Of a DNA stretch of 64,000 nucleotides, positions 54,319 to 63,792 are shown in pieces; the stretch's first letter is position 1; the number at the start of each line of letters is the position of its first letter. The DNA comes from Gammaproteobacteria bacterium (GTDB lineage: Bacteria > Pseudomonadota > Gammaproteobacteria > GRL18): the NCBI GenBank assembly GCA_027012135.1, contig JALUZF010000162.1, positions 62,001-126,000 on the forward strand, in the 5' to 3' direction. The notes beneath the pieces are model-generated. The model had not been told where the DNA came from. It searched no databases and worked only from the letters and a program-made list of their open reading frames with translations. A program made the translations under genes and the position numbers.

Positions 54319-55062
54319 ATGTCTTCAAAATCCAGAACAGCCACTGAACCCAACTATGTTGCCTGTGATGCCTGTAAATTATCCCCAATCTGTACCCCCG
54401 TTGATGTGGGCGGACACAGTTATGATTTTACCGGGCAAATGGTTCACCGGCGGCATTTTTTTAAAAAAGGGACTTTTATCTTCAGGCAGGGTAAGCCTGC
54501 AGAACTGGTTTATGCTATTTCAGCCGGTACTGTTAAGCTGATTGCTGAAGTAAAGGATAGCCGGAGAGTGGTGGATTTTCGAATTCCAGGTGAACTGGTG
54601 GACATCAGTTCTCTTATTGAAGGCATGCACACTTATAGCGCTCAGGCACTGGAAAATACCTGGTTGTGTGAAATAGGTAAGGAAACCCTGGTGGATATTG
54701 CCTCTCAGATCCCGCAGGTACAGGGACGACTGATGAATGTGGTTAACAAGGAACTGGCCAGCATTCAGAAATCCGCCCTGTTTCTGCACGGCAATGTCAA
54801 TGCCGAAGAAAAAATTGCCGCCTTTGTTCTTAACCTGGCCTGGCGTTATTCCTTAAGCGGCTATTCAGCCGAAAGCTTTAAACTGACCATGACCCGAACT
54901 GACATTGCCGATTATCTGGGTTTATCTAAAGAAACGGTTATCCGCCTGTTTAAAAAACTCGAACAGGCTGAACTGCTCAGCGTGCAGGGTAAACAACTCG
55001 CTATAAAAAATATGGATAACCTGCAGAATTTTGTGGGTATCCATCTTATTACTGCCGGTTAA
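54319..55062 (+). CDS. fnr: FNR/CRP family transcription regulator
   Basis: A 247-residue FNR-type regulator. The 4Fe-4S ligands are Cys16, Cys19, Cys25 (CDACKLSPIC) and Cys117 (WLCEIG), matching Cys20/23/29/122 of E. coli FNR, so it is an oxygen sensor. The cyclic-nucleotide fold spans 40-150. The recognition helix is GLSKETVIRLFKKL; the FNR triplet ExxSR is ExxIR here, closer to Crp. It is 340 bases before ccoN and probably controls it. Confidence 0.9.
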   Translation: MSSKSRTATEPNYVACDACKLSPICTPVDVGGHSYDFTGQMVHRRHFFKKGTFIFRQGKPAELVYAISAGTVKLIAEVKDSRRVVDFRIPGELVDISSLIEGMHTYSAQALENTWLCEIGKETLVDIASQIPQVQGRLMNVVNKELASIQKSALFLHGNVNAEEKIAAFVLNLAWRYSLSGYSAESFKLTMTRTDIADYLGLSKETVIRLFKKLEQAELLSVQGKQLAIKNMDNLQNFVGIHLITAG

Positions 55063-55401: not shown

Positions 55402-56838
55402 ATGGAAGAAGCTGCAGCGGAGCAGAAGTATAACTTCGACGTTGTGCGCTGGTTTGCCGTAATGACCGCCGTTTACCTGGTAGTAGGTGCAACGGTAGGG
55501 GTATATATTGCCTCTGAATTGGCATGGCCGGTGCTCAACCTTGACAGTCCTTATTTATCGTTTGGACGTTTACGACCTTTACATACTAATGCGGTTATTT
55601 TTGCGTTTGGTGGATGTATCCTGATGGCAACCGCTTTTTACACGGTACAGCGTACCTGTGGTGTAAAACTCTGGAGTAGCAAGCTGGCATGGTTCACCTT
55701 CTGGGGCTGGAACCTGATTATTGTTGCTGCTGTTATCACTCTGCCTTTAGGTTTAACTCAGTCTAAAGAATACGCTGAACTGGAATGGCCAATTGACCTT
55801 GCGATTGCCGTAGTCTGGCTGTCGTACATGTTCAACTTCCTGATGACCATTGCAAACCGTAAAACCAAACACATCTATGTGTCTAACTGGTTCTTTATGG
55901 GCATGATGATTATGATCACCCTTCTGCACGTGGTTAACAGTGCTGCTATCCCTGTTGGTGCTTTCAAATCCTACTCTGTATACTCCGGTGTACAGGATGC
56001 CATGATTCAGTGGTGGTGGGGTCATAATGCGGTAGGTTTTTACCTGACTGCGGGCTTCCTGGGTATTATGTACTACTTCGTTCCAAAGCAGGCCAATCGT
56101 CCTGTGTTCTCTTATCGTTTATCCGTTATTCACTTCTGGGCGCTGATGTTCGGTTATGTCTGGCTGGGTGCTCACCACCTGCAGTACACTGCATTGCCTG
56201 ACTGGACCGGTTCTTTAGGGGCTGCGGTTTCCATTGCTATGATTATTCCATCATGGGGTGGTGCGGTTAACGGTATGATGACTTTATCCGGTGCCTGGGA
56301 TAAATTACGTAATGACTACGTATTACGCTTCCTGATTATGTCTCTGGCATTCTATGCCATGTCTACTTTTGAAGGTCCAATTATGTCCATTAAGACAGTA
56401 AACGCACTGTCTCACTACACTGACTGGACCATTGGTCACGTACACTCCGGTGCTCTGGGCTGGGTTGCTATGGTTGGTATCGGTGCTCTGTATCACATGA
56501 TCCCAAAAATTTTCCATACCCCAATGTATTCTCAGAAACTGATTAATATGCACTTCTGGACTGCAACCGTTGGTACCGTGGTTTACATTGTTGCCATGTG
56601 GGTATCCGGTATCATGCAGGGTTTGATGTGGCGTGCTTATGATGAGTACGGAACTCTGGCTTATACTTTTGCAGAATCTGTAGAAGCTATGCATCCATAT
56701 TACGCAATGCGTGCTATTGGCGGCGGTATCTTCTTACTGGGTGCAGTAATTATGCTGTATAACATTATTATGACTGTTCTGAAAGCCAAGAGCGAAGGCA
56801 CAGTTAAAGCGGCACAAACTGCTGCTGTAACGGCATAA
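55402..56838 (+). CDS. ccoN: cbb3-type cytochrome c oxidase subunit I
   Basis: A 478-residue catalytic subunit with 12 helices, reducing oxygen to water at high affinity. Histidine ligands of heme b and the heme b3/CuB site lie in [45 protein letters not shown] and [17 protein letters not shown] start at ATG 55402 (MEEAAAEQ) after GGAGA; GTG 55390 is possible. First of ccoNOQP. Confidence 0.97.
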
Positions 56839-56852
56839 GGAGGAGTTGTAAA

Positions 56853-57572
56853 ATGGCTTTTAATGATCCACAAGCAAATGAAAATGGCATGCAAAGCAAG
56901 GCCGAGAAAAATGTCTGGCTGTTAGCTTTCTTTACCTTTCTGGTGGTGTCTGTTGCAGGTATCGTAGAAATCGTACCGCTGTTCTATCTGGACAGCGCAT
57001 TGCCTGCAAAAAATATCCCTGGTGTTGTCTGGAAAAGAGACGCTGGCCAGTCGCTGGATGACTGGAAAGAAGGTGACGGGGTTCGTCCTCTGAAGCCTCT
57101 TGAACTGGCGGGTCGTGACATTTACCAGCGTGAAGGCTGCTATCTGTGTCACTCTCAGATGGTACGTCCATTCCGTGATGAGAAAGAGCGCTATGGTCAC
57201 TATTCACTGGCTTCCGAGTCAATGTATGACCATCCTTTCCAGTGGGGTTCAAAACGTACTGGACCTGATCTGGCTCGTCTGGGCGGTAAATACTCTGATG
57301 AATGGCATATACAGCACCTTAAGGCGCCTCGTTCCGTGGTACCTGAGTCTGTTATGCCGAATTATCCATGGCTGCTGGAAAACACCGTGGATGGAGAGAC
57401 TCTTAAAGCTCATATGCGTGGTTTAAGATCTGTGGGTGTTCCTTATACTGATGCTGATATTGAAAGCGCAGCGGCCATTACCGGTAAAACCGAAATGGAA
57501 GCTATGGTTGCCTATCTGCAGCAGCTTGGAACAATGGTTAAATTCCAGGAAGGGGTAGAATACCGTGAGTAA
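56853..57572 (+). CDS. ccoO: cbb3 oxidase mono-heme subunit II
   Basis: A 239-residue membrane-anchored cytochrome c. One helix (21-48) is followed by a periplasmic domain with CYLCH (96-100) and the axial Met in SQMVRPF or the later [29 protein letters not shown] and [25 protein letters not shown] are the family hallmarks. It overlaps ccoQ by eight bases. Confidence 0.97.
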
Positions 57573-57804
57573 TCCTTCTTCAGGCACTGGTGCCTATATA
57601 GAAGAAAATGCACAAGGTTATTTCCATACTGACTGGAGTGCAATGACTTCTCATGACTGGGCAGGGCTGTTAATTACAGTGGTTACCTTTGTCCTGATGG
57701 TCATTGCTTACTTCTACGTTTTTCGTCCAAAAAACAAGGATAAACTTGAGCAGCAGAAATACATGCTGATGGACGAAGAAACCACAAATACGGAGAAAAA
57801 ATAA
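57565..57804 (+). CDS. ccoQ: cbb3 oxidase subunit CcoQ
   Basis: A 79-residue protein with a single helix (30-50, [22 protein letters not shown]) and the [15 protein letters not shown] tail of CcoQ, which stabilises the oxidase. It begins with GTG and overlaps ccoO and ccoP by a few bases. Its N-terminal extension (about 25 residues before the helix) is somewhat longer than in many CcoQ proteins. Confidence 0.92.
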
Positions 57805-58655
57805 TGTCGGAACATGAGCATAATCCCTTTCCCGATGAAGGGAATACCGGGCATATCTGGGATGATAATCTGAGAGAACTTGCGAATCCTGCACCAAACT
57901 GGTGGATGATGGCTTTTTATGCCAGTATCGCATTTGTTATCGGTTATGGTCTTATTTATCCCATGATCCCATTAACAGACAGCTATACCAAAGGTTTAAC
58001 CGGCTGGACTGCTATTGGTGAATATAAGGCAGCAACTTCAGAAGTAGAAGCTGTTCGTAAACCCTATGAAGATAAAATTGCCAAAATGTCAGCCAAAGAA
58101 ATTCTGGCAGATGCCGAGCTTTCTGCTTATGTAGAAGCTTCCGGTAAGGTTATCTTTGGTGATAACTGTGCGGCCTGTCATGGTACCGGCGGTTCGGGTA
58201 ACCCAGGTTTCCCGGTACTGGCGGATGATGACTGGCTGTATGGCGGAAGTATTGAGCAGATCCAGACTACTATTACTAATGGTAGACAGGGTATGATGCC
58301 CAAAATGGGTGGCCAGCAGCTGACTGATGCAGAAATCGATAAACTGGCTAATGCCATTTACAATGGTACTGTGACCAAAGAACCTCTGTTTACCAGCAAA
58401 GGTTGTATGGGCTGTCACGGCCCTGACGGTAAAGGTATGGCTGCACTGGGTTCTGCAAACCTGACCGATGGTATCTGGCGCTTTAGTGAGCCTGATCAGC
58501 TGGCCTCTATCAAATACACTATTAAGCATGGTGTAAATGATGGTAGTGATCCTGAAACCAGAAAACCTAAAATGCCTTCATTTAAGGATAAACTGTCTGA
58601 GCAGGATATCAAGAAAATGGCAGTTTACGTTTATAAGTTTGGTGGTGGTAAGTAA
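57804..58655 (+). CDS. ccoP: cbb3 oxidase di-heme subunit III
   Basis: A 283-residue membrane cytochrome c. One helix at about 33-55 (WWMMAFYASIAFVIGYGLIYP) is followed by a periplasmic part with two c-type hemes, CAACH (122-126) and CMGCH (201-205). The N-terminal HIWDDNLRELANPAPNWW is the family signature. It feeds electrons to CcoO and CcoN. Confidence 0.97.
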   Translation: MSEHEHNPFPDEGNTGHIWDDNLRELANPAPNWWMMAFYASIAFVIGYGLIYPMIPLTDSYTKGLTGWTAIGEYKAATSEVEAVRKPYEDKIAKMSAKEILADAELSAYVEASGKVIFGDNCAACHGTGGSGNPGFPVLADDDWLYGGSIEQIQTTITNGRQGMMPKMGGQQLTDAEIDKLANAIYNGTVTKEPLFTSKGCMGCHGPDGKGMAALGSANLTDGIWRFSEPDQLASIKYTIKHGVNDGSDPETRKPKMPSFKDKLSEQDIKKMAVYVYKFGGGK

Positions 58656-58827
58656 GGATTCTTGCTAACACCAGATATCAGTGTTCTGATTAAAGACTTA
58701 TATGAGTATTACATGATATAAGTCAACAGGGCACTGAAATAAAAACGTTATGATTAAGCTTTATAAAATCGGTATGTTATAAATTACTGTATTAGCATAC
58801 TATCCTGGTTAATATAGGAGTGTTCTT
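58656..58827. promoter_or_regulatory. Intergenic region before the small membrane protein
   Basis: About 170 AT-rich bases separate ccoP and the 38-residue protein at 58828. No hairpin with a T-run is evident here, so read-through from ccoNOQP is possible, and TAGGAG at 58815-58820 is the ribosome site for the small gene. Confidence 0.3.
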
Positions 58828-58944
58828 ATGAATGATGCTGTATTTTGGGGTTCTATTGCAGCTGTCGGTATTTGTGTTGTAATTCTTGTGTATTTAGGTT
58901 TTTTAGCCGTCAAAAAAATCAACACTGATCACAGTGAAGATTAA
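58828..58944 (+). CDS. Small single-helix membrane protein, CcoM-like candidate
   Basis: A 38-residue frame: MNDAVFWGSIAAVG continues as ICVVILVYLGFLAVKKINTDHSED. One hydrophobic helix (about 6-28) is followed by KK and a polar tail. TAGGAG lies eight bases before the ATG, and a strong terminator follows. Its size and topology recall CcoM, a small subunit of Pseudomonas stutzeri cbb3 oxidase, and it sits inside the cco locus between ccoP and ccoG. No sequence identity is claimed. The gene is easily missed because it is short. Confidence 0.62.
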   Translation: MNDAVFWGSIAAVGICVVILVYLGFLAVKKINTDHSED

Positions 58945-58957
58945 AAAATTTTAAAGC

Positions 58958-58989
58958 AAAAAAAGAGAGGCTATGCCTCTCTTTTTTTT
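58958..58989 (+). terminator. Rho-independent terminator after the small protein gene
   Basis: AAGAGAGGC and GCCTCTCTT form a perfect nine-base stem with a TAT loop, followed by a T-run, and the mirrored A-run upstream makes it bidirectional in appearance. It ends the ccoNOQP-small protein transcript, so ccoG needs its own promoter. Confidence 0.9.
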
Positions 58990-59115
58990 GCCTGAATTTT
59001 CTAATAACAAAAAGTTTATGTAACATAAGTTACTTATAATGTTCTTATTTGATCTATAATAGGTTAGTTAGCTTTTATTTTTTCAGTGTTTATCATTTTT
59101 AGAGAAATAACCATT

Positions 59116-60543
59116 ATGGCCGAAAAAAATATTCAGGAACAGACGATAGAAGAACTCTACGCTGAAGCCAATGAGCATAAGATTAATGTTGGTGACGTGA
59201 AGATTCACGCCAAGCGTATGAAGGGCAAATTCAGAAGCATAAAATGGCTGACTAATTCCATCTGGTTAATTCTTTTTTTCGGACCCTATTTACGCTGGAA
59301 TGGACATCAGGCCGTATTGCTGGATATTCCTAACCGTCAGTTTCATATTTTTAATATTACTCTGCTGCCGCAGGACTTATGGATGCTGTCATTTGTGCTG
59401 TTATTTTTTGCTATTCTGCTGGCGGTAGTTACGGCACTGGCCGGCCGGGTATGGTGCGGATTTTTCTGTTTTCAGACGGTGTGGACCGATGTGTTTACCT
59501 GGATTGAAGATAAAATAGAAGGCGGGCCTGCTAAACGTCGTAAACTGGATAAGGCCCCCTGGGATGTTAAAAAAATCACCATGCGGGCCAAAAAGTATCT
59601 GCTCTGGTTTTTAATTTCAGTGTTTACCGGTATTAGTTTTGTGGCCTGGTTTACCGATTCGTTCCAGCTCTGGAAAGATCTTTTTACTTTACAGGCTTCT
59701 TCCACGGTCTGGATCACTATTTTAATGTTCACCGTAGGTACTTTTTACCTGGCTGGATTTTTACGTGAGCAGGCCTGTTTCTGGCTTTGTCCTTATGCCC
59801 GTATTCAGGCAGTAATGATTGATGATACCTCCATTGTTCCCAGCTATGATGTACCACGGGGTGAAAAACGTGGCCGTCTGGTTAAAGGTAAGCCGGTATC
59901 TGAAGATCAGGGTGACTGTGTTGACTGTAACCAATGTGTAGCCGTCTGCCCTACCGGTGTAGATATTCGCGGTGGCCAGCAGGAAGGCTGTATTATGTGC
60001 GGTTTGTGTCTGGATGCCTGTGATGCAGTAATGGACAAAATTGGCAAACCCAAAGGCCTGATAAAATACGCTTCCTGGGATGGTATACGCGGCAAGGAAG
60101 AAAAGCCTCTGTTTAAGCGTCCCAGAGTCTGGCTGTATACAACTATTATGACTATTGCCCTGGCTGGTATTATATATGGCCTCAGTGGTATGGAGTCCAT
60201 TGAACTAAAGGTTATTCATGCCAGACAACCCCTGTTTGTTCTGCAAAGTGACGGCACCATACAAAATCGTTACACATTAAAGGTATTAAATAAACTTCCT
60301 GCAGATATGGATGTCAAAGTAAGCGTAAAGGAAAATAATTTGAAAGGTCTGATCATTAGTGGTGCAGAAAAGCCCGTAACAGCTCATCATGGTACCGTTA
60401 CACCGGTTACCATTTTTGTGAGAGTACCTAAGAAAAATCTAACCGAACAATCGGTGCCGCTTACCTTTGTGGTGGATGGTAAGGATGAGTCTGGTCAGGT
60501 TTATCATAGTGAACGGGAAAGTGTGTTTATCGGACCTAAATGA
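59116..60543 (+). CDS. ccoG: cbb3 oxidase accessory iron-sulfur protein CcoG
   Basis: About 475 residues: five or so membrane helices and a cytoplasmic loop with two 4Fe-4S sites, CVDCNQCVAVCPTG and CIMCGLCLDACDA. It is related to RdxA/FixG and reduces copper for cbb3 assembly. The C-terminal part (about 350-475) is an Ig-like domain. I start at ATG 59116 (MAEKNIQ); GTG/ATG positions upstream are less likely. Confidence 0.95.
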   Translation: MAEKNIQEQTIEELYAEANEHKINVGDVKIHAKRMKGKFRSIKWLTNSIWLILFFGPYLRWNGHQAVLLDIPNRQFHIFNITLLPQDLWMLSFVLLFFAILLAVVTALAGRVWCGFFCFQTVWTDVFTWIEDKIEGGPAKRRKLDKAPWDVKKITMRAKKYLLWFLISVFTGISFVAWFTDSFQLWKDLFTLQASSTVWITILMFTVGTFYLAGFLREQACFWLCPYARIQAVMIDDTSIVPSYDVPRGEKRGRLVKGKPVSEDQGDCVDCNQCVAVCPTGVDIRGGQQEGCIMCGLCLDACDAVMDKIGKPKGLIKYASWDGIRGKEEKPLFKRPRVWLYTTIMTIALAGIIYGLSGMESIELKVIHARQPLFVLQSDGTIQNRYTLKVLNKLPADMDVKVSVKENNLKGLIISGAEKPVTAHHGTVTPVTIFVRVPKKNLTEQSVPLTFVVDGKDESGQVYHSERESVFIGPK

Positions 60544-60706: not shown

Positions 60707-61216
60707 ATGAATACAGAAAAAGAAGATACAAAAAAGAAAAACTGGTATAAAAGTCCCTGGGTAATAGGCTGGCTGCTGCTGGTTGCAACGGTACTGGGTG
60801 TTAATTTTTACATGATTATGCAGTCTATGAATGAGTTCCCAGGACTGGTAGTGGATGACTTTTATGAACGCGGCCAGGATTATGAAGAAAACATCCATAA
60901 AAAACTGGATAATAATAATCTCTGGAAAACCAGCTTTGATTACCAGCAGATTCATCTGAATCAGCCTGCTGATATACGATTTGTGATCACTGATCAACAG
61001 GGTAATACTGCAAATATAGAAAAAATGACCCTGTACCTGTATCGTCCCGCCAATGCTAAAAAAGATTTTTCCCTGCCTATGAACGCAACGGAAAAAAATA
61101 ATACCTGGCATACCAGTGTCAGTTTTGACAGTAAAGGAAAGTGGGATATGCTGGTAAGTGTCATTATAGATGGTAAGGAAGCCAACTATGGTGAAAGTAT
61201 TTTTGTTAATGACTGA
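60707..61216 (+). CDS. ccoH: cbb3 assembly protein CcoH (FixH)
   Basis: About 169 residues with one N-terminal helix (17-37, WVIGWLLLVATVLGVNFYMIM) and a periplasmic beta-rich domain. YKSPWVIGWLLL and VVDDFYERGQDYEENIHKK match FixH. It helps assemble the cbb3 complex. I use ATG 60707; a TTG at 60686 extends into a hairpin. Confidence 0.92.
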   Translation: MNTEKEDTKKKNWYKSPWVIGWLLLVATVLGVNFYMIMQSMNEFPGLVVDDFYERGQDYEENIHKKLDNNNLWKTSFDYQQIHLNQPADIRFVITDQQGNTANIEKMTLYLYRPANAKKDFSLPMNATEKNNTWHTSVSFDSKGKWDMLVSVIIDGKEANYGESIFVND

Positions 61217-61251: not shown

Positions 61252-63792
61252 GTGAGCCACTCCGAGACCTGTGATCATTGCCACCTGCCCCTGCCTGAAG
61301 GGGAAAAAATAACGGCAACCATAAACGATAAAGAAATGCAGTTTTGCTGCTACGCCTGCAAAACCGTATGTGAAACCATCTATGGTGCAGGTATGGAAGG
61401 CTTTTATCAGCGCACACCTGATAATGAAACCCTGCAGCCGCCTCCTGAAATTGATTCCCAGCTGGAAGTGTATGATCTGGATGAAGTTCAGGGGGATTTT
61501 GTTGACGGCCTGGACGATATACGGGAAATACATCTGCTGGTGGAAGGCATTCACTGTGCTGCCTGTGTCTGGCTGATTGAACGGCGGCTGGCCATGGTCG
61601 ACGGAGTTCTGGATGCCTATGTTAATCTTAGTGCCAAAAAGCTCAAGGTAAAATGGGATAACCGAAAAATAAAATTATCCCGGATACTGCAGATCCTCGG
61701 CCAGATTGGTTATGCGGCTGTGCCCTATGATCCGGAAGCGGCTGAAGGGCAGATAAAAAAAGCCAATCGACAGTTATTATTCCGCCTGGGTTTTGCCGGC
61801 TTTGCGGCCATGAATCTGATGTGGATTTCCATTGCGCTTTATACCGGTGCTGATGAAGGTAAATTTAAAGAACTGTTTTACTGGCTGGGATTCGGCCTGG
61901 CTACACCCACTTTAATCTATTCCGGTTATCCCTTTTTCCGGGGTGCTATTACTGGTCTGCTCAATCGTCATCTGACCATGGATCTGCCCATTGCTATCGG
62001 GGCGACAATTACCTATCTGTATTCCTGCTATGTAGTAATCAGCGGTTCAGAAATTGCCCATGTGTATTTTGATACTGTGGTTAACTTTATTTTTGTTATT
62101 TTAACCGGCCGCTACCTGGAGGCCATGTCCAAACGCCTGGCTGTACAGTCCTCTCAACGACTGCTGGATCTGCAGCCTAAAATCTCTACCCTGATTGAGG
62201 GTGATGAAACAAAAATTGTACCCATACGGGCCCTGAAAGAAGGAGACTGGGTACTGGTTAAAGCCGGAGAAAAAATTCCGGTAGACGGGGTGATCCTCAA
62301 GGGTGAAGGAATTATTGATGAGTCCATGCTGACCGGAGAATTTGTACCTGTAGCCAAATTTAAAGACGATTATGTTTCAGCAGGTACTACCAATAAAGAT
62401 GGTGTGCTGACCATTGAAGTGAAAAATACCCTGAAAAATACCGCCCTGGGTAAAATTATTCATCTGGTGGATGAAGCCCAGTCAACCAGGGCTCCGATTC
62501 AATGTACTGCGGATCGGATCATTCCCTGGTTTGTTTCCGTGACTCTGGTTCTGGCGACCCTAACCTTTTTCTTCTGGGTTAATAAGGACTTTGAACTGGC
62601 TTTGATGGCGGCAACCTCGGTGCTGATTATTACCTGTCCCTGTGCTTTTGGCCTGGCCACACCCATGGCTATTGCCGTGGCCACGGGCGTTGGTGCACGG
62701 ATGGGGGTGCTGGTAAAACATGGGGCGGTGCTGGAGATATTATCTTCAATTAAAGATTTTATATTTGATAAAACCGGTACTCTGACACAGGGCAAGATGC
62801 TGGTCAGTACCCTGTATGATATACCGCTGGATCAAACCGGCAGGATAGAACCCATTAATGTTGATGAAGAGCATATGGCACAACTGGATCAACATCAGAA
62901 ATCCATTCTGGCATTAGCCTGGTACCTGGAAAAACAGTCGGAACACATGATTGCCAGAGCCATTGTCAGTTTTGCTCAGCAATACGCTTTACAGCACTGG
63001 ATTCGACAGACCCTTAAAACCAGTAATGACGATCTGGAGCATATTAAGGTAATACCAGGTTCTGGAATACAGGCCAGTTACCAGAACAGGCGGGTGGCCA
63101 TTGGACATCTGAACTGGATAAAGGAAATAGCTTCATTGTCGCCGGAGTTAGTTGTAAAACTTGAACAGGAAATGCAGCAATACCATGTTAGTGGCAGCAG
63201 TGTGGTCTATATCTGGTTTAAGGCACAGGCTTTAATGGCCTTTGTGGTGGAAGATAAATTACGTGAAGATGCGCCCGGGATTATTAAAAAAATGCATGAA
63301 CAGGGCTTTCATGTTACCTTGTTAAGTGGCGATAAACAGGAAGTAGCTCAATATATGGCGGATAAGCTGGGTATTGAGGAAGTGATTGCAGAAGTAATGC
63401 CGGATCAAAAAGACCAGTTAATTCAGCAAAAACAGCAACAGGGGCTGAAGGTGGCTATGGTCGGTGATGGTATTAATGATGCACCGGCTCTGGTCAGGGC
63501 TGATGTGGGTATAGCCATGGGCTCGGGCACCGATGTCTCTATAGAAAGTGCTGATGTTATCCTGGTCAATGGAGAACTGGCAAAAATTCCGCTGGCAGCA
63601 GAATTGTCTCGGGCAACACTGGCAACTATTAAGCAGAATATAGGCATTTCTATTGTCTATAATATTGTTATGGTGCCGCTGGCCATGGCGGCCATGATAA
63701 CACCACTGGTCGCAGCGATCTCCATGCCCTTAAGTTCTTTGCTGGTGATTGGTAATGCCGCCAGGTTGCGCTGGCGCTTTAAAAACAACTAG
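61252..63792 (+). CDS. ccoI: Copper-transporting P1B-type ATPase CcoI (FixI)
   Basis: An 846-residue copper exporter. It starts with GTG at 61252. An N-terminal cysteine motif (CDHCHLPLPEGE, CCYACKTVC) is followed by a heavy-metal domain with CAAC (102-105). The membrane CPC motif is at 462-464 (TCPCAFGLATP), the phosphorylation motif DKTGTLTQG begins at 506, and GDGINDAPAL lies near 737. It supplies Cu to the CuB site of CcoN. Follows ccoH by 35 bases. Confidence 0.96.
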   Translation: MSHSETCDHCHLPLPEGEKITATINDKEMQFCCYACKTVCETIYGAGMEGFYQRTPDNETLQPPPEIDSQLEVYDLDEVQGDFVDGLDDIREIHLLVEGIHCAACVWLIERRLAMVDGVLDAYVNLSAKKLKVKWDNRKIKLSRILQILGQIGYAAVPYDPEAAEGQIKKANRQLLFRLGFAGFAAMNLMWISIALYTGADEGKFKELFYWLGFGLATPTLIYSGYPFFRGAITGLLNRHLTMDLPIAIGATITYLYSCYVVISGSEIAHVYFDTVVNFIFVILTGRYLEAMSKRLAVQSSQRLLDLQPKISTLIEGDETKIVPIRALKEGDWVLVKAGEKIPVDGVILKGEGIIDESMLTGEFVPVAKFKDDYVSAGTTNKDGVLTIEVKNTLKNTALGKIIHLVDEAQSTRAPIQCTADRIIPWFVSVTLVLATLTFFFWVNKDFELALMAATSVLIITCPCAFGLATPMAIAVATGVGARMGVLVKHGAVLEILSSIKDFIFDKTGTLTQGKMLVSTLYDIPLDQTGRIEPINVDEEHMAQLDQHQKSILALAWYLEKQSEHMIARAIVSFAQQYALQHWIRQTLKTSNDDLEHIKVIPGSGIQASYQNRRVAIGHLNWIKEIASLSPELVVKLEQEMQQYHVSGSSVVYIWFKAQALMAFVVEDKLREDAPGIIKKMHEQGFHVTLLSGDKQEVAQYMADKLGIEEVIAEVMPDQKDQLIQQKQQQGLKVAMVGDGINDAPALVRADVGIAMGSGTDVSIESADVILVNGELAKIPLAAELSRATLATIKQNIGISIVYNIVMVPLAMAAMITPLVAAISMPLSSLLVIGNAARLRWRFKNN

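Follow-up and report, generated by a model that had tools for sequence, protein, structure and literature searches.

The open reading frame at positions 58828 to 58944 (forward strand) of the window, i.e., the whole 64,000-nucleotide stretch of DNA that was analyzed, is a real protein gene under selection and is tied to the cco genes of the cbb3 oxidase. The gene, which was given the working name X, codes for a 38-amino acid, CcoM-like, single-helix membrane protein (MNDAVFWGSIAAVGICVVILVYLGFLAVKKINTDHSED), and it appears to be an operon-encoded, divergent form of the CcoM type with a much wider range, outside the current family models. We estimate at roughly three in four the probability that its product is a CcoM-type accessory subunit that stabilizes the cbb3 core. 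The assignment of X as a gene for such a small membrane protein is based on the conservation of the frame, on purifying selection, and on the position of the gene in other genomes.

X is located between ccoP (upstream, 57804–58655; Pfam FixP_N and Cytochrome_CBB3) and ccoG (downstream, 59116–60543; FixG_C and Fer4_18), as the first-pass annotation had described, and the open reading frame and the Pfam-identified neighbors confirmed this arrangement. All genes of the locus are on the forward strand. A gene for a regulator of the Crp/Fnr family (54319–55062; HTH_Crp_2 and cNMP_binding) precedes ccoN (55402–56838; TIGR00780, E 8e-205; PDB 9g6b and 3mk7), which is followed by ccoO (56853–57572), recognized because its position matches that of ccoO in relatives, and by ccoQ (57565–57804), which codes for 79 amino acids and matches Pfam FixQ below the cut-off (E 1.3e-5). 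Downstream of ccoG are ccoH (60710–61216; Pfam FixH) and a gene for a ccoI-like P-type ATPase (61252–63792, identified by reading the sequence). The same kind of reading places ccoS after the latter gene, past the end of the window.

Several small proteins of this cluster resemble the X product. CcoQ/FixQ (PF05545) is also a small single-helix cbb3 subunit, and CcoS/FixS and CcoH/FixH are small membrane proteins encoded in cco clusters. All three identities were rejected: X matched neither FixQ nor FixS in Pfam, it had no Pfam match that would make it a FixH, and the true ccoQ, ccoS, and ccoH are the separate genes mentioned above. No above-cut-off match for X was found in Pfam or NCBIfam. The weak Pfam matches (GDT1, BcsF, Syndecan) were below cut-off and typical of transmembrane helices, and the sole match of the X family profile in PDB, a peptide transporter helix (E 0.03), was also discarded.

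Most of what the first-pass annotation had read from the letters around the frame held up. The strong ribosome site is an AGGAG Shine-Dalgarno sequence at 58816–58820, 7 nucleotides before the ATG, and sites of the GGAG/GAGG type are retained in most relatives. The single helix was reproduced by an AlphaFold2 model (residues 4–37, mean pLDDT 90), and aspartate D3 in the short N-terminus is invariant in the X family. The description of the C-terminus as a polar, Lys-rich tail was only partly accurate, because a KK pair is present but the tail continues as INTDHSED, which makes it just mildly Lys-rich and acidic at the end. The terminator is an intrinsic hairpin at 58956–58991 (GCAAAAAAAGAGAGGC-tat-GCCTCTCTTTTTTTTGC, with a U run) that starts 11 nucleotides past the stop codon and has a folding energy of −20.5 kcal/mol (z −4.8). 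A simple scan for terminator patterns did not list this hairpin, presumably because its T run is taken up into the stem; a hairpin-like element is found downstream of X in many relatives too. Another stable hairpin (−24.8 kcal/mol, z −3.05) lies directly 3′ of ccoP, at 58656–58760, and is possibly an mRNA 3′-end or processing element. Two members of the genus have about 170–180 additional nucleotides after ccoP in the ccoP–X gap, alike in both.

The full-length protein was found, at 63–100% identity, in 19 genomes of the source bacterium's family, a number that comprises those matching X and includes the genome of the window. The X copies adjoin ccoP in 19/19 of them, and also ccoG wherever the contig extends that far. 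The pN/pS ratio in the X frame was 0.14 within the genus, versus 0.94 and 2.99 in the two remaining forward frames, and 0.22 over the family, where the other forward frames gave values of at least 0.9. Over the family, variation was concentrated at third codon positions, of which 33 of 38 were variable, compared to 14 first and 12 second positions. Frames +2 and +3 contained stops in all 19 genomes and frame +1 in none. One antisense frame showed a pN/pS of 0.33–0.38, a value that selection on the coding strand can produce, yet it is interrupted by stops in 19/19 family genomes. The antisense open reading frame at 58809–58925 was rejected as a gene, as it has stops in most relatives and lacks a selection signal of its own. 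The first-pass annotation had named two observations that would speak against the gene, i.e., a frame that is not conserved in related genomes and substitutions that ignore codon position; what was found is a frame kept in 19/19 genomes and a pN/pS of 0.14. That X is a chance open reading frame or an untranslated RNA leader, as its very short length and the stable hairpins before and behind it might suggest, has a negligible probability, since the low pN/pS is limited to the coding frame and the start codon and ribosome site are preserved across great distances. The chance open reading frame was therefore rejected on the basis of frame-specific selection.

The ccoP–X gap includes a candidate promoter. 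An FNR/Anr-like box, ATGATATAAGTCAA (58713–58726, forward strand), with two mismatches to TTGATN4ATCAA, is followed 22 nucleotides later by the −10-like hexamer TATGAT (58749–58754, same strand). A box and a −10 hexamer at such spacing constitute the layout of class II FNR promoters, and the pair was predicted to be one that serves X. The spacing of exactly 22 nucleotides was found in 14/19 family genomes, which as relatives are not independent, and the single-locus p-values are modest (0.00–0.15). In these 14 genomes, the hexamer lies anywhere between 13 and 80 nucleotides upstream of the ATG. In two relatives, a perfect FNR box is located upstream of ccoN. Taken together, the conserved box/−10 layout, the FNR boxes before ccoN, and the Crp/Fnr gene suggest that X may have its own promoter; in the source family, it may be transcribed both with the operon and from an oxygen-controlled FNR-type promoter.

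X is widespread in gammaproteobacteria. Its distribution was surveyed by six-frame searches of 370 genomes of this class with profiles of the small protein alone, taking E < 1e-8 as a clear match. Clear matches were obtained in 39 genomes, and in 39/39 carriers one match is located between ccoP and ccoG. All 39 are among the 240 class genomes with ccoN (hypergeometric p 1.4e-8). As the first-pass annotation had advised, related cco loci were also searched for the same small gene: a CcoG search in named genomes produced 68 loci in which ccoP is also visible, and X is present in 63 of them. A scan of 11,791 open reading frames of 20–400 amino acids found no X match elsewhere in the named loci. 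One of the 63 copies (L192:2370–2486) is frameshifted (MNTDMVFWGAV / ...CKFMKQDAERNAG), which points either to gene decay or to a fault in the assembly. In L178, L181, L190, L194, and L199, ccoP and ccoG are about 200 bp apart without X, unlike in their relatives. The named carriers include Sedimenticola selenatireducens, Thiocapsa roseopersicina, Lamprocystis purpurea, Motiliproteus coralliicola, Candidatus Thiodiazotropha, and a Lamellibrachia symbiont. X likewise occupies the ccoP–ccoG gap in eleven genomes from one family (f190) of another class in the same phylum. The ccoP–ccoG gap of a more divergent cbb3 operon type contained no small hydrophobic open reading frame like X, and no match was found in the plasmid collection. 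The gene order thus makes the link of X to cbb3 very strong, and the association with this oxidase that had been proposed from the sequence alone is supported by the 39/39 class genomes and the 63/68 named loci.

Three genomes have second, unlinked copies of X with no cco gene nearby (L262:2293–2418, L264:2172–2366, and L265:2324–2452; an example of the protein is MLDATAILA...RITRLMK.CNSEEL), and those of L264 and L265 are near SPFH/NfeD-like genes. X can therefore occur outside the operon, and its protein may not be restricted to cbb3. These copies speak for a different role of this small membrane protein, one for which its place in the cco operon would be incidental, but we consider this explanation very improbable because all 39 clear carriers of the class have X at the ccoP–ccoG position and also have ccoN.

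The known protein of the same size is CcoM of the Pseudomonas/Stutzerimonas cbb3 oxidase, whose sequence is that of PDB 5djq chain N. PMC8267372 cites CcoM as present in the oxidases of some Pseudomonas species, where it is required for the stability of the cbb3 complex and not for its activity. The first-pass annotation had noted that X has the size and topology of CcoM, and the likeness goes further. Both proteins are 36–43 amino acids long, with an aspartate 2–3 residues after the methionine; the features of CcoM (about 36 amino acids, a single transmembrane helix, a basic C-terminal side) are found in X, with its 38 amino acids and helix at residues 4–37. The NCBIfam CcoM model NF041600, with a curated cut-off of 40 bits, did not match the protein of the window and weakly touched three members of the X family, all in the same register, with a best score of 16.3 bits. 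None of the X family profiles reached chain 5djq_N. A CcoM alignment was then built from 24 Pseudomonadaceae genomes, and hhalign aligned it with X at 83.6–86.1% probability over 30–31 columns, in register from Met1. The first alignment scored 26.6, and the 600 column shuffles that were run with it reached a maximum of 22.0. The larger alignment scored 27.5, compared to a mean of 10.1 and a maximum of 16.4 for 71 decoys, which were transmembrane helices cut from cco proteins; windows of the CcoQ profile scored no better than other decoys. We consider that X and the Pseudomonas CcoM are probably homologous, distantly, and this homology is well supported; the identity is below 30% over about 30 residues, mostly helix, and a single short helix puts a low ceiling on proof. 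X is CcoM-like and not a member of the NF041600 model. The possibility that X is a cbb3-associated single-helix protein of independent origin, whose likeness to CcoM reflects convergence of short transmembrane helices, derives from the short, hydrophobic nature of the sequences and the lack of a match to the formal model; we regard it as improbable because the in-register match from Met1 beats all 600 shuffles and all 71 decoys.

The two forms also differ. In 30 Pseudomonadaceae loci, the ccoM gene is separate from cco and often has rapA or a phaJ-like gene close by, whereas X is in the operon. The X family also lacks the F-[IV]-W-x-D block that is conserved in CcoM. A clear CcoM was found in 0/39 X carrier genomes, and no operon-encoded copy of the X family was found at cco in Pseudomonadaceae. 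The operon-encoded X and the Pseudomonas CcoM therefore seem to substitute for each other.

CcoM is a subunit visible in the 5DJQ structure, and the homology of X to it also bears on whether X could instead be a transient helper of cbb3 assembly or of copper or heme insertion, like CcoH or CcoS, rather than a stoichiometric subunit. X adjoins the assembly genes ccoGHIS, and many assembly factors are small single-helix proteins; at this locus, ccoH and ccoS are genes of their own. The X family has no conserved metal motif made of Cys, His, or Met, and with the homology to CcoM this leaves the helper function unlikely, though less so than the alternatives considered above. Cytochrome bd, a different terminal oxidase, has very small single-helix accessory subunits, CydX and CydH, whose way of working would be analogous; neither has a library match to X. 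CydX is also cited in PMC12350097.

As a CcoM-type accessory subunit, the X protein would have a short N-terminus with D3, one transmembrane helix, and a basic-to-polar tail that, judging from the charge distribution, would be cytoplasmic. The helix would pack against the CcoNOQP core and stabilize the assembled oxidase, in line with the role of the Pseudomonas CcoM as cited in PMC8267372, and it presumably has no catalytic role. In the source family, X would be made from its own putative FNR-type promoter and its transcript would end at its own terminator; with such an arrangement, its levels would rise with low oxygen.

The X family, for which Pfam has no model and NCBIfam no matching one, occupies one fixed place in cco operons. 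Its operon carriers are sulfur oxidizers, purple sulfur bacteria, symbionts, and others, and cultured, named strains are among them. These results suggest that in many bacteria the cbb3 core includes a fifth small subunit, overlooked by purification and annotation. The chances seem even that X is the ancestral CcoM and belongs in general to the oxidases of a large proteobacterial cbb3 clade, with the Pseudomonas CcoM as a relocated, diverged offshoot. In that case, what has passed for a specialty of Pseudomonas would be a widespread but unannotated subunit.
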